Source of the DNA: Akkermansiaceae bacterium
GTDB taxonomy: Bacteria > Verrucomicrobiota > Verrucomicrobiia > Verrucomicrobiales > Akkermansiaceae
Direction of reading: 5' to 3'
DNA: 56,099 nucleotides
NCBI GenBank assembly: GCA_023261045.1
Contig: JALRJZ010000002.1
Coordinates: 1 to 56,099, forward strand
Numbering within the stretch: the first letter of the stretch is position 1; the number at the start of each line of letters is the position of its first letter. Below the pieces are notes generated by a model. It was not told where the DNA came from, did not search any database, and saw only the letters and a program-made list of their open reading frames with translations. The position numbers were made by a program, and so were the translations under genes. This document shows positions 20,226 to 27,072 of the stretch, in pieces.

Positions 20226-21317
20226 ATGAGATTGTTTATGAGGTTGGTTTTTAGAGTTTCTCTTTTTCTCTACGGGTTGAGTTGCATCGCGGGCCTTGCT
20301 CAGCTTGGCCCTCCTCTAGGAGGTCCCTTTCGCCCGGAGGGCCGCGAGCCTGGTTTGGATAGAGGCCCTCGACCAGAAAGCTTGGGTGCGAGTCTTGCCG
20401 AGTTAGGTTCGGCAGGGATTGTATGGTATCCCATCCTTCAGCAGGGACTTGCCGAGGCAAGACGGATGAATAAACCCGTTCTTTTCATGTCAGTTGCTTC
20501 GCAGTGCGGGGGCATTTCGGGGGTCTTCTGACCAGGGTATACTGCCACGCAGAACCGTGAGTTTAGCGATCCAAAAGTTATCGAGGCCACTCGGAGATTT
20601 GTGTGTGTGAGAATTGATTCTTATGAAAGTCAAGAGGCTCAGGATCTCGTGAGAAGCTATCTCAACGGGCGCTTTGAGAATACGGCATTTTGTATCTTAT
20701 CTCCAAACGGCACGCAGCGGCTTACGAGAAGTGGCCGAGGCCCGCAACATGCGATACGAGGGAATCTTGCAGAGGGGTTGGAAAGAATTGCTCGTCGTTA
20801 CTCGCCGAAGCAAAAAGCACAGGAGGCCGCTGTTCCCGACTTTCCTAATTTTCGTTTGGGTTTAAATGTGGCCTCAGCAGATCAACGCCTCATTCTTCTT
20901 GTGAGTGGAACTAATCAGGAGCTCAAAAAAACCCGGGAGGCATTGAAAGCCGTCTGTAATGATCCTGATCTGATTGGTCGATTTCACTACGACTTCGAGG
21001 AGCAAAAACAAAGTTGGCAAAAGGTTTTAACTGGTCCCAGTGATCAAAGTCGGCTGATGCTGATTTTACCCGACGAATTCGGTCAGAAAGGAAAAGTTCT
21101 TTGGTCGATGCCACTGGATACACCTTCTGCAGACATCAAGTCTGCCTTGCTCGAATCCAATCGTGCTTTTGCCAACGAGGTTGAAAAGAAAGTCTACCGA
21201 GAACATGTCAGAAAGGGGCGACGCGAAAAGATCCAGTGGACCATGCCGATGGAGTATGGAGAAGATCGTGATGGAGATGGGGAGATCGATTTTCGAGGTC
21301 CTCCGCGCAGAAGATAA
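20226..21317 (+). CDS. Secreted thioredoxin-like protein read through an in-frame TGA at 20529-20531 (candidate selenocysteine, or nonsense mutation/assembly error)
   Basis: ORFs 20226..20531 and 20601..21317 share a frame. Joined: KPVLFMSVASQCGGISGVF[TGA]PGYTATQNREFSDPKVIEATRRFVCVRIDSY, resembling the KPVLxxx..C....F.DP.V layout of thioredoxin-like proteins. Confidence 0.7.
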
Positions 21318-22541: not shown

Positions 22542-25500
22542 GTGAAAGGTCATTGGGTCATTTTTTTTCTGTATTTGAGCGTTGCTTTGTGTGAGGCAGG
22601 AGCGCTTTCGTTTAACCGAGATATTCGCCCCATTCTTTCTGAGAAATGTTTTTCGTGTCACGGATTTGATGAGCAAACCAGGGAGGCAAAATTGCGTCTC
22701 GATGTAGCGGAGGGAGCATTGCGTAAGAAAAAACGTGGGCGGCCTGCCCTCGTTGCCGGAGAGCCAGAACAAAGTGAGGCGTGGTTGCGAATTATTTCCA
22801 CGGATGAAGACGATGTCATGCCGCCCCCAGACTCGCATAAAACGATGTCTGAAGAGGAAAAGGCCACGATCCGTCAGTGGATCGTGGAGGGGGCCAATTA
22901 CCAGCAGCACTGGGCGTTTGAACCCGTCGCTAAGGTTGAGTTGCCTGACGGAGAAGGGAGCGCAATCGATCGGATCATTCAAACTGCGCTTCGGCAACAA
23001 GGGTGGGGTTTCTCTCCTGAAGCTGATCGGCCAACCTTGATCCGTCGTGTGAGCTTTGCGCTGACGGGGCTACCTCCCTCACCAGGAGAAGTGAAAACTT
23101 ACCTCGAAGATACGCAACCGGGAGCCTATGAGCGAATGGTTGAACGCTATTTGGCGTCACCTCATTACGGTGAAGAAATGGCAAGACATTGGTTAGATGC
23201 CGCGCGCTATGGTGATACACATGGCATGCATTTGGACAATGAACGTCAAATGTGGGCTTACCGTGATTGGGTGATTGCAGCGTTCAACAAGAACCTGCCT
23301 TATGATCAATTTACAATCGATCAACTTGCAGGTGATCTGATTGCTCAACCTACCCAAGACCAGCTAGTTGCAACTGGTTTTAATCGATGCAACGTAACAA
23401 CTGGGGAGGGCGGAAGCATCGCGCAGGAGTTTATTTTTCGTTATGCCGTTGATCGTACGAGCACGATGGCACAGGTCTGGCTTGGGTTAACTGCAGGCTG
23501 CGCGGTTTGTCACGATCACAAATATGATCCAATAACCGCTAAGGAATTCTATTCCCTCTACGCTTTTTTTAATTCCAATGCTGATCCGGCCATGGACGGC
23601 AATCAGTTGCTCACCGAGCCAGTGATCAAGGTAAAGCCCGAAGGCTATGATGAGCGAATCCAGTCCTTCACGCAGCGAGAGCAAGCGATCAATGCAAAGC
23701 TGAATCAACTGGCAAGCCAGGTGGCTTATGAGGACCCGGCAGAAATGATCCCTCCTCCGGATCAGGTCATGACCGAGCAAGTTTGGTTTGATGAGGCCTT
23801 TCCCACGGGAGCTCAGCTTGGGGCTTCGGGCCACCCTTTAACTTTCGTGGAAGAACCAGTTTTGAGCGGAAAGGTGGCTTTGAAGCGAAGCGGGGAGTTG
23901 ATGGCTCAAGATTATTACCAAAGTGGTGCGCAGGATCTCATGGTGCCAGAGCAAGCCACTTTCTTCATCCATGTTTACCTCGATCCAAATGATCTTCCCG
24001 ATGAAGTCATGATACAATTTCATACCAATGGGTGGAGCCATCGTGCCCTCTGGGGGCAGGACGTGATTGAATTTGGAAAGAAGGCAACAACCGAGCGATA
24101 CCGAGCTGGGGAGCTGCCAGAAGCTGGCAAGTGGGTGAAGCTGGAAGTCAGCGGTGAAAAAATGGGTTTAAAAGCTGGCGACCTCATTAAGGGTTTTGCC
24201 TTTACGGTCTACGGGGGAACAATGTTTATCGACCGCTTTGGTGTTCAAGGAGTGAGTGATCCAGTGAATGATCCGAGTTTGTCGCTAACCGCTTGGAGAA
24301 AGGCTCGAACTGGTCAGGATACTCCAAATGTTCCCGCGGATCTTAACGCGTGGCTCAAAGCGGGACCTGAGGCGCAAAGAAAGCCCGAGGAAAAGGCGAC
24401 AATACGACAGTACTATCTGCGTGAAGTTTGCCGGAGCACGCGGGGTCGATTCACGGAGTTGCGGGGTGAACTTGCGGCGATTCAGAAAGAACGGGCCGAT
24501 TATGACCAGAGCGTGCCCTCCACGTTTGTGTATCGCGACCTTGCGAAGCCTCGAGATAGCTTTGTGATGGTTCGAGGTGAATACGACAAGCCTGGCGAGC
24601 GGGTGGAGCCTGACACGCCTGCAATTCTTCCTCCTTTAAAAAAACGGGCAGCGAGAGCAGACCGGCTCGATCTTGCTTATTGGGTCGTGGCTCCTGAAAA
24701 TCCGCTCACCTCCCGGGTCGCTGTCAATCGAATCTGGCAGCAAGTTTTTGGTGTGGGGCTGGTGAAGACAGCACATGACTTTGGGACTCAAGGAGAATTA
24801 CCAAGTCACCCTGAGCTTCTTGACTACTTGGCAGGAAATTTCCAAGCGACGGGTTGGGATGTGAAAGCCTTAATGCGCTCGCTGATTACAAGTCGCACCT
24901 TTCGCCAGCGGAGTTCTGCAAGTGCGTTGCAGTGGCAAATGGATCCGGAGAATCGTCAGCTAGCGCGTGGTCCTCGTTTTCGTCTCGATGCTGAACAGCT
25001 CAGAGATCAGGCTCTGTTTGTAAGTGGATTGATTGAGCTCAAGATGGGAGGCAAGGGGGTGATGCCTTACCAACCACCAAATATTTGGGAGCCCGTTGCC
25101 TTTGGCGGATCTAACACCCGTTTTTATCAGCAAGGAAAGGGAGCTGACCTCTACCGAAGGTCAATCTATACCTTTTTTAAACGCACGGCTCCTCATCCCG
25201 CGATGACGAATTTTGATGCCCCAAGCCGAGAGCAATTCTGTGTCGGGCGTGAACGGAGCAATACCCCACTACAAGCTTTGCAGCTCATGAATGACGTTCA
25301 GCATTATGAAGCAGCGAGAGGACTGGCCGTTCGGATGATGAAGGAATTTTCGGGTCTAGAAGCTCAAATAGCATTTGCGTTTCGAGCGGTTCTTGCGAGA
25401 GAAGGTAGAGAGGAAGAGATCGCTATTGCCCGCAAACTCTACGAGCGTCAGTTTGCTGTCTATCAAGAGGCCCCAGAAGAGGCCGCAAAAGCCGTTGCCT

Positions 25501-25607
25501 TTGGTGAATCCGAAGTCCCGGCGGATCTTAATACTCTCCAACTCGCCGCCCTCACGCTCGTGGCCAATTTAGTGCTCAATATGGACGAAGCCATTGTGCG
25601 CAATTAA
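22542..25607 (+). CDS. PSD1 / planctomycete cytochrome c domain protein (DUF1549 + DUF1553)
   Basis: FNRDIRPILSEKCFSCHGFDEQTREAKLRLD; RHWLDAARYGDTHG; PLTSRVAVNRIWQQVFGVGLVKTAHDFGTQGELPSHPELLDYLA; RSIYTFFKRTAPHPAMTNFDAPSREQFCVGRERSNTPLQALQLMND. Confidence 0.95.
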   Translation: MKGHWVIFFLYLSVALCEAGALSFNRDIRPILSEKCFSCHGFDEQTREAKLRLDVAEGALRKKKRGRPALVAGEPEQSEAWLRIISTDEDDVMPPPDSHKTMSEEEKATIRQWIVEGANYQQHWAFEPVAKVELPDGEGSAIDRIIQTALRQQGWGFSPEADRPTLIRRVSFALTGLPPSPGEVKTYLEDTQPGAYERMVERYLASPHYGEEMARHWLDAARYGDTHGMHLDNERQMWAYRDWVIAAFNKNLPYDQFTIDQLAGDLIAQPTQDQLVATGFNRCNVTTGEGGSIAQEFIFRYAVDRTSTMAQVWLGLTAGCAVCHDHKYDPITAKEFYSLYAFFNSNADPAMDGNQLLTEPVIKVKPEGYDERIQSFTQREQAINAKLNQLASQVAYEDPAEMIPPPDQVMTEQVWFDEAFPTGAQLGASGHPLTFVEEPVLSGKVALKRSGELMAQDYYQSGAQDLMVPEQATFFIHVYLDPNDLPDEVMIQFHTNGWSHRALWGQDVIEFGKKATTERYRAGELPEAGKWVKLEVSGEKMGLKAGDLIKGFAFTVYGGTMFIDRFGVQGVSDPVNDPSLSLTAWRKARTGQDTPNVPADLNAWLKAGPEAQRKPEEKATIRQYYLREVCRSTRGRFTELRGELAAIQKERADYDQSVPSTFVYRDLAKPRDSFVMVRGEYDKPGERVEPDTPAILPPLKKRAARADRLDLAYWVVAPENPLTSRVAVNRIWQQVFGVGLVKTAHDFGTQGELPSHPELLDYLAGNFQATGWDVKALMRSLITSRTFRQRSSASALQWQMDPENRQLARGPRFRLDAEQLRDQALFVSGLIELKMGGKGVMPYQPPNIWEPVAFGGSNTRFYQQGKGADLYRRSIYTFFKRTAPHPAMTNFDAPSREQFCVGRERSNTPLQALQLMNDVQHYEAARGLAVRMMKEFSGLEAQIAFAFRAVLAREGREEEIAIARKLYERQFAVYQEAPEEAAKAVAFGESEVPADLNTLQLAALTLVANLVLNMDEAIVRN

Positions 25608-25614
25608 CAAACTG

Positions 25615-27072
25615 ATGAATCCATTCTACCAACACCAGCTTTTGCAGACACGGCGTCAATTCTTTGGCGATACCGGAATTCGCCTTGGGGGAATCGCAAT
25701 GGCGTCTTTGCTTGGTTCGGGTACAAGCAAAGCAGTCGGATCAAAAGTCCACCCAGCATTAAATGGATTTCCTCATTTTGAGGGCCGAGCGAAAGCCGTG
25801 ATCTATCTCCATATGAATGGAGGGCCCTCGCAGCTCGACACGTGGGATTACAAGCCCAACCTCATCAAAGAGTTTCGCAAAGATCTACCGAAGGATTTTC
25901 TTGGTAATCGTATTACCACAATGACGAGTGGTCAGGGTAAGTTCCCGGTTGCCCCATCGCGGTTCAAGTTTTCGCAACATGGTGAGTGTGGGCGTTGGGT
26001 GAGTGAACTTCTCCCTCATACCGCAAAAATCGTCGACGATTTAGCGGTGATCAAAACCGTCAATACGAATGCCATCAACCACGATCCAGCGTGTACCTTT
26101 GTGATGACCGGAAGCGAAGTTTCCGGAAAGCCGAGCTTAGGCTCTTGGATTTCATATGGACTTGGAGCGCAGACCGAAGATCTACCAGCCTTTGTCGCCT
26201 TAAACCCAAGTTTTCCGAATGGATCGAACGCTCAAGCTTTATTTAGCAGGATGTGGGGGCCGGGCTTTTTGCCGGGGCGCCATAGTGGCGTTGTTTTGAG
26301 AGCAGGCAACGATCCGGTGCTCTATTTAGAAAATCCTCCGGGACTGAGTAGAAAGGATCGTCGAGTAATGCTTGATTCTCTGCGAGAACTCAATGTCCAA
26401 GGCTTTGAGAGATTTGCCGATCCAGATATTCAAACTCGCATTTCTCAATATGAAATGGCGTTTCGCATGCAAGCGAGCGTGCCGGAGCTTGTCGACTTTA
26501 GCAATGAGTCTCAAAAAACCATGGAGCTCTATGGGCAGCGCGTTCAACAGCCGGGTTCGTTTGCATCTAGTGCCCTCCTCGCACGGCGTTTAGTGGAGCG
26601 AGGAGTGCGCATGGTTCAAATTAATCATCGAGGTTGGGATTCTCATGGGAATCTCCCTCAAGAATTATCAAATCAATGTGCTGACACAGACCAAGCTTGT
26701 GCCGCCTTAATCACCGATTTGAAACAACGCGGAATGTTGGATCAAACACTTGTTATCTGGGGGGGAGAATTTGGTCGCACGGTCTATTCCCAAGGCACGC
26801 TCACCGAAACTCAGTATGGACGTGATCACCACCCTCGTAATTTCTGTATGTGGATGGCGGGTGGTGGAATTCGAGGTGGCACTGAATTAGGAGAAACGGA
26901 TGATTTCTCCTATAATCCGATCAAAGACCCGGTCCATATCAATGAAATCAATGCGACGATCCTCCATTGCTTGGGAATTGATCATGAACGTTTTACCCTT
27001 CGTTATCAGGGCTTGGATCAGCGATTAACAGGAGTGAAACCGATGAAAGTTTTAAAAAAGATTCTCGCTTAA
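25615..27072 (+). CDS. DUF1501 domain protein with Tat-type signal
   Basis: N-terminal TRRQFFGDTGIRLGG; AKAVIYLHMNGGPSQLDTWDYKP; VIWGGEFGRTVYSQG...GRDHHPRNFCMWMAGGGIRGG. Follows the DUF1549/1553 gene directly, as usual for this pair. Confidence 0.95.
   Translation: MNPFYQHQLLQTRRQFFGDTGIRLGGIAMASLLGSGTSKAVGSKVHPALNGFPHFEGRAKAVIYLHMNGGPSQLDTWDYKPNLIKEFRKDLPKDFLGNRITTMTSGQGKFPVAPSRFKFSQHGECGRWVSELLPHTAKIVDDLAVIKTVNTNAINHDPACTFVMTGSEVSGKPSLGSWISYGLGAQTEDLPAFVALNPSFPNGSNAQALFSRMWGPGFLPGRHSGVVLRAGNDPVLYLENPPGLSRKDRRVMLDSLRELNVQGFERFADPDIQTRISQYEMAFRMQASVPELVDFSNESQKTMELYGQRVQQPGSFASSALLARRLVERGVRMVQINHRGWDSHGNLPQELSNQCADTDQACAALITDLKQRGMLDQTLVIWGGEFGRTVYSQGTLTETQYGRDHHPRNFCMWMAGGGIRGGTELGETDDFSYNPIKDPVHINEINATILHCLGIDHERFTLRYQGLDQRLTGVKPMKVLKKILA

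Follow-up and report, generated by a model that had tools for sequence, protein, structure and literature searches.

The question raised by this locus is whether the TGA at positions 20529-20531 ends a gene or encodes selenocysteine (Sec) within it. The window, by which we mean the whole stretch of 56,099 nucleotides that was analysed, carries on its forward strand a single frame of 363 residues (20226-21317), closed by TAA, whose sole internal stop is this TGA at residue 102. The initial annotation had described two ORFs, 20226..20531 and 20601..21317, lying in the same frame with the TGA as their only break, and re-translation gave the same result; homologues cover most of the length of the joined 363-codon frame. 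We argue here that gene 20226-21317 almost certainly encodes a predicted selenoprotein in which the TGA is read as Sec102, a reading to which the Sec machinery of the genome, the conservation of the TGA, and a covarying SECIS at legal spacing all lend support.

The TGA was conserved wherever the family could be found. In the GTDB family to which the window belongs, 262 genomes were searched and 49 carried a homologue at an E-value of 1e-5 or better; full-length homologues were 33-65% identical, and every match spanning the site, across the 49 carrier genomes, had the TGA, with one homologue (in G238) containing an extra TAG in the flanking open frame. Sampling 390 genomes evenly across the window’s phylum yielded three carriers, all of its own family. 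A search of the whole collection with the single window protein as query returned no match, but a search with the alignment as query succeeded: a profile scan of one genome per species (85,462 species) produced 107 relatives, 80 of which were kept, and all 80 had TGA at the Sec codon even though one of the search patterns specified a Cys codon there. Among 395 genomes of Planctomycetota, 54 near-full-length matches were found in 50 genomes, each with exactly one TGA. Across two phyla, TGA thus occupied the Sec codon in 163/163 family loci and none had Cys, a residue whose presence in homologues customarily backs a Sec assignment, though it is not strictly needed, and which was seen at this column only in distant Thioredoxin_7 relatives; because some loci are the same contig reached by two routes, the 120 sequences that are distinct over the first 45 nt are the safer count. 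The named relatives comprise MAGs of Akkermansiaceae and other Verrucomicrobiales, Roseibacillus, and Planctomycetota, and the TGA-bearing loci include one from an isolate, Roseibacillus persicicus KCTC 12988 (L102), and one from a complete genome, that of Planctomycetes bacterium K23_9 (L125). The alignment of homologues that the initial annotation had proposed as a check accordingly shows TGA at the column throughout, and never Trp, Arg or Cys. Three matches were considered as TGA-less members and rejected, as they begin 3′ of the Sec column; those in G963 and G884 run up to the end of a contig, and that in G681 is split in two, with the TGA in the other piece.

The host genome (2.93 Mb in 433 contigs, completeness 87.5%) is equipped to decode UGA as Sec. 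A search for selA, selB, selD and tRNA-Sec, likewise suggested at the outset, recovered all four: a tRNA-Sec on contig C332 (64.8 bits), identified independently by ARAGORN as tRNA-SeC with anticodon tca, together with SelA (503 bits against a cut-off of 268), SelB (319 against 242), and SelD (384 against 125). The SelD gene (L067, contig C288) has one in-frame TGA of its own, in the motif SSCAGU, and 3′ of it a hairpin, ACGCA-AGTTT-TGCGT, with an AGTTT loop as in the SECIS of the family described here; judging from its sequence, SelD would itself be a selenoprotein.

Presence of the gene also followed presence of SelB. In the window’s own family, SelB was found in 47/49 carriers versus 24/213 non-carriers (Fisher p 2.3e-31), and in Planctomycetota in 49/50 carriers versus 193/345 non-carriers (p 1.3e-10); as both tests ignore shared ancestry, these values denote a strong association and not exact probabilities. 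All 16 genomes reached by way of their loci had a SelB match, which exceeded the cut-off in 15. SelB was not detected in three carriers (G224, G230 and G969), of which the two own-family exceptions are 80% (G224) and 65% (G230) complete.

The RNA downstream of the TGA contains a stem-loop that differs from the one first proposed. The initial annotation had pointed to a hairpin, CACG...CGTG, with a loop lacking the expected G; this candidate was rejected, and the stem that is conserved and covarying among homologues is formed by GCAGAAC (20549-20555) and GTTTAGC (20561-20567) around the loop CGTGA (20556-20560), placing the SECIS at 20549..20567 of the forward strand. Counted from the T of the TGA, stem positions 21-27 pair with 33-39 and the loop occupies 28-32, beginning 24 nt after the TGA. 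In the window the stem has four inner pairs, with a closing G.U, then an A.A mismatch followed by a further two pairs, and the structure reads GC(A)GAAC-CGUGA-GUUU(A)GC here and GGACAGG-AGUUU-CCUGUCC elsewhere; other loops in the family are AGTTT, GGTCT, AGTCT, AGTTA, and AGTGT.

Among near relatives, 77% of stem cells were paired, whereas no slid version of the structure exceeded 50%, and in the wide set 87.8% were paired versus 27-51%. The wide set also held 109 double-changed cells versus 45 in shuffles, with a covariation of 0.618 versus 0.204, and from it RNAalifold recovered the inner four pairs unaided; on the near-family set alone, it predicted no structure. Because the stem sits within coding sequence, pairing was compared with a synonymous-codon null, which it exceeded in the window’s genus (z 8.2), in the other near relatives (z 5.6), and in divergent members (z 11.2). 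The bSECIS model calls for a loop of 3-9 nt, an upper stem of 4-16 bp, a loop located 16-37 nt from the UGA, a G within the first two loop positions, and an MFE of -7.5 kcal/mol or lower (PMC13188914). In the family the loop has 5 nt, the stem 4+2 bp, and the spacing is 24 nt; of the 120 distinct sequences, 117, CGTGA of the window among them, have a G as the second loop base and the remaining 3 as the first, so that the objection of a missing G is removed. The 24-nt core folds at -4.4 kcal/mol in the window, weaker than the threshold, at -6.8 in L017, and mostly at -8 to -15 kcal/mol in divergent members, and the free 51-nt MFE fold of the window differs from the conserved stem.

The predicted protein opens with a probable signal peptide of about 25 residues, MRLFMRLVFRVSLFLYGLSCIAGLA (20226..20300), recognized by inspection, and the AlphaFold2 model (pLDDT 84) is disordered at the N-terminus (pLDDT below 50 over residues 1-45). 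It then shows a strand at residues 85-90 and a helix at 103-113, at whose N-terminus Sec102 (20529..20531) opens the motif U-P-G-Y, and further on a second half of alpha/beta type; Foldseek matched the model to DUF255 (3ira), DsbD-gamma, and tandem thioredoxin proteins (PDI, QSOX). The first thioredoxin-fold domain spans approximately residues 62-188 (20409..20789) and has weak Thioredoxin_7/DUF255 similarity; the second, approximately residues 205-320 (20838..21185), is without CxxC and, from its secondary structure and the tandem-thioredoxin matches, is likely thioredoxin-like with a packing of its own, given the low TM-scores of those matches. A search by sequence for a solved structure found none.

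Both the model and the Foldseek matches place the chalcogen residue at the helix-1 N-terminus of a thioredoxin fold, and in the profile alignment its column coincides with the position that opens the UPGC, UPPC, and UPAC motifs of distant Thioredoxin_7 proteins of the UxxC type. The CxxC/UxxC pair itself is absent, nearly all members having UPGY or UPGK, and from the profile alignment it follows that the attacking residue was kept as Sec and the second Cys lost to Tyr or Lys. Two further cysteines are conserved: Cys94 (20505..20507), a candidate resolving thiol eight residues before the Sec, does not vary in the alignment and is found in 34/35 divergent homologues, and Cys127 (20604..20606; FVC[VI]R) varies hardly at all in the alignment and occurs in 35/35. 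Near the C-terminus, an acidic motif, GEDRDGDGEID (21258..21290), resembles a Ca-binding loop and may function as one; it is kept in the near family and lies outside the matched region in divergent members.

Several other explanations of the TGA were weighed against decoding as Sec. When a draft MAG shows a lone TGA, the usual suspicion, which the initial annotation had also considered, is that a TGG or CGA became TGA by nonsense mutation or base-call error; the locus would then be a pseudogene or an artefact. But because the same TGA recurs in independent assemblies of two phyla, in 163/163 loci with an isolate and a complete genome among them, mutation and error are excluded as explanations and we leave them next to no probability. 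The frame downstream is moreover under purifying selection: dN/dS 3′ of the TGA was 0.05-0.16 in pairs of relatives with unsaturated dS, and in pairs against the window gene, where dS is saturated, pN was 0.26-0.36 and pS 0.79-0.87 in the downstream frame. Somewhat less improbable, though still very much so, is that the TGA is a true stop, yielding a 101-residue peptide followed by a separate gene from the GTG at 20601. Such a GTG is present, and TGA does end 11/31 ORFs of at least 200 codons in the window; a stop here, however, would sever the first strand of the thioredoxin fold from helix 1, the codons lying between TGA and GTG are conserved both as protein (UPGYTxTQNxxFS) and as RNA, and the association with SelB and the covarying SECIS would be left unexplained. 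A conserved in-frame TGA could also be read as another amino acid, such as Trp, through a code change or a suppressor. Against a code change stands the use of TGA as the ordinary stop of those same 11/31 long ORFs; the genome moreover encodes tRNA-Sec, SelA, SelB, and SelD, and thioredoxin-like proteins have Sec or Cys at the aligned column. We give this explanation scarcely any credence.

Decoding of the TGA as Sec can be put in mechanistic terms. Computation shows that the UGA is conserved, that the SECIS covaries, that the machinery is present, that the codons past the UGA are under purifying selection, and that the first half has a thioredoxin fold; in the mechanism that we propose, SelB and Sec-tRNA(UCA) would read the UGA at 20529-20531 as selenocysteine, directed by the stem-loop whose loop begins 24 nt past it. 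The product, with its two thioredoxin-like halves, would be exported, and Sec102 would take the attacking position of a thioredoxin CxxC, the second Cys being replaced by Tyr or Lys. Its selenolate may attack a disulfide, a peroxide or a sulfenic acid outside the cytoplasm, with Cys94, Cys127 or an outside thiol resolving the intermediate. A redox role of the predicted protein is in our judgement probable. A structural or metal-binding Sec would accord with the lack of a CxxC/UxxC pair and with the C-terminal acidic loop that may bind Ca, but the thioredoxin fold, the Sec at the attacking position, and the two conserved Cys fit redox chemistry better, and we consider the structural alternative unlikely. 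For the more specific proposal, namely that the Sec is obligatory (there being no Cys form, and the gene being lost where the Sec trait is lost), that it pairs with a distant Cys (C-x7-U), and that the substrate is extracytoplasmic, we see the chances as evenly balanced.

The genomic context gave no conserved neighbour hinting at a substrate. In the window the gene lies beside genes for a GNAT acetyltransferase and a SASA-type esterase; clustering of ORFs over 80 loci and the window found no partner gene at a constant position, and sulfatases recur near family loci at scattered positions, so that no operon argument can be made. Elsewhere in the window (22542-27072), a gene for a PSCyt1/PSCyt2/PSD1 protein adjoins one for a DUF1501 protein, a gene pair familiar in Planctomycetota and Verrucomicrobiota.

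Where the TGA is annotated automatically as a stop, this gene will be truncated or dropped across Sec-using Verrucomicrobiota and Planctomycetota, many marine MAGs included. To be accepted by the deep-Sep method, a candidate needs homologues with Cys or known ones with Sec, and the authors of the method state that selenoproteins without Cys homologues may be misidentified or missed (PMC12013277). If the family is indeed Sec-only, it is of a kind to which searches relying on Sec/Cys pairs are blind, of which it would be a clear example, and its strong RNA signature could be used to train detectors. The seeming failure of Cys to replace Sec here bears on why Sec is kept at all, and the cultured carrier Roseibacillus persicicus makes Sec retention testable.

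Comparison with known families places the protein among thioredoxin-like selenoproteins. NCBIfam 20.0 has no model for the family and none of its models reaches its cut-off; the best matches, all weak, are other thioredoxin-like selenoprotein families (NF041199, NF041382/3, and NF045694; best E 0.0014-0.007 over 26 members), and five divergent members have no NCBIfam match at E 0.001. The most frequent, NF041199 (17/26, best E 0.007), shares a Thioredoxin_7-type domain with Sec, but the family falls far under its 300-bit cut-off and has the motif UPGY/UPGK with no second Cys; the motif of this Trx7/PDZ (seleno)protein is given as CxxU (PMC13188914), and Pfam found no PDZ domain in the family. 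The VPGUxxT proteins (NF041382/NF041383) are also thioredoxin-like with Sec, but their motif stands against GVFUPGYT here and the matches are at E 0.002 or weaker, while TsoB (NF045694) reaches 15.5 bits against a cut-off of 805. The 2026 catalogue, which covers 119 families and subfamilies of prokaryotic selenoproteins, those of Haft and Tolstoy 2025 among them, holds no entry that could be matched to the motif and fold (PMC13188914). The family is apparently absent from selenoprotein catalogues, though it may have been listed before as a candidate without a name. A study of two Porphyra-associated Planctomycetes, one of them a Rhodopirellula, reportedly listed selenoprotein candidates.

By fold, Thioredox_DsbH/DUF255 (PF03190) and Thioredoxin_7 (PF13899) share the position of the attacking residue, and 3ira (DUF255) matches at 3.4 A over 140 columns; Thioredoxin_7 matches weakly in 26/26 aligned members (best E 1.1e-6), and the window protein scores 16.6 bits to PF03190 and 14.7 to PF13899, both under the gathering cut-off of 27. 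The second Cys of their CxxC is Tyr or Lys here, however, and the family adds a second thioredoxin-like half. Eukaryotic PDI and QSOX, the best PDB matches by E-value, likewise have two thioredoxin-fold halves, but they are without Sec, and with a TM-score of only about 0.2 over both domains the arrangement is not shared.

Further in-frame TGAs were encountered in Planctomycetota, in UPAC, UKYC, UPGC, and UPPC of L185, L191, L199, and L200, respectively; these distant Thioredoxin_7 proteins, below NCBIfam cut-offs, are candidates for further selenoproteins. L186 (G830:C37) is thioredoxin-like, carries C-PRNVF-U-PGY, scores only 33 bits to the family profile, has no NCBIfam match, and is possibly a member of a sister Sec family, and L187 and L190 (G673 and G640) have in-frame TGAs in VUGVRC and CVPUKDC with weak thioredoxin-like matches. 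The Sec column of L185, L199, and L200 aligns with that of the family, from whose UPGY the motif UPGC differs in its last residue only, but these UxxC proteins retain the second Cys, and their matches extend over only 65-82 profile positions, with scores of 27-36 bits. Set beside these systems, the family is most likely a new one of Sec-only, exported oxidoreductases with a thioredoxin fold.
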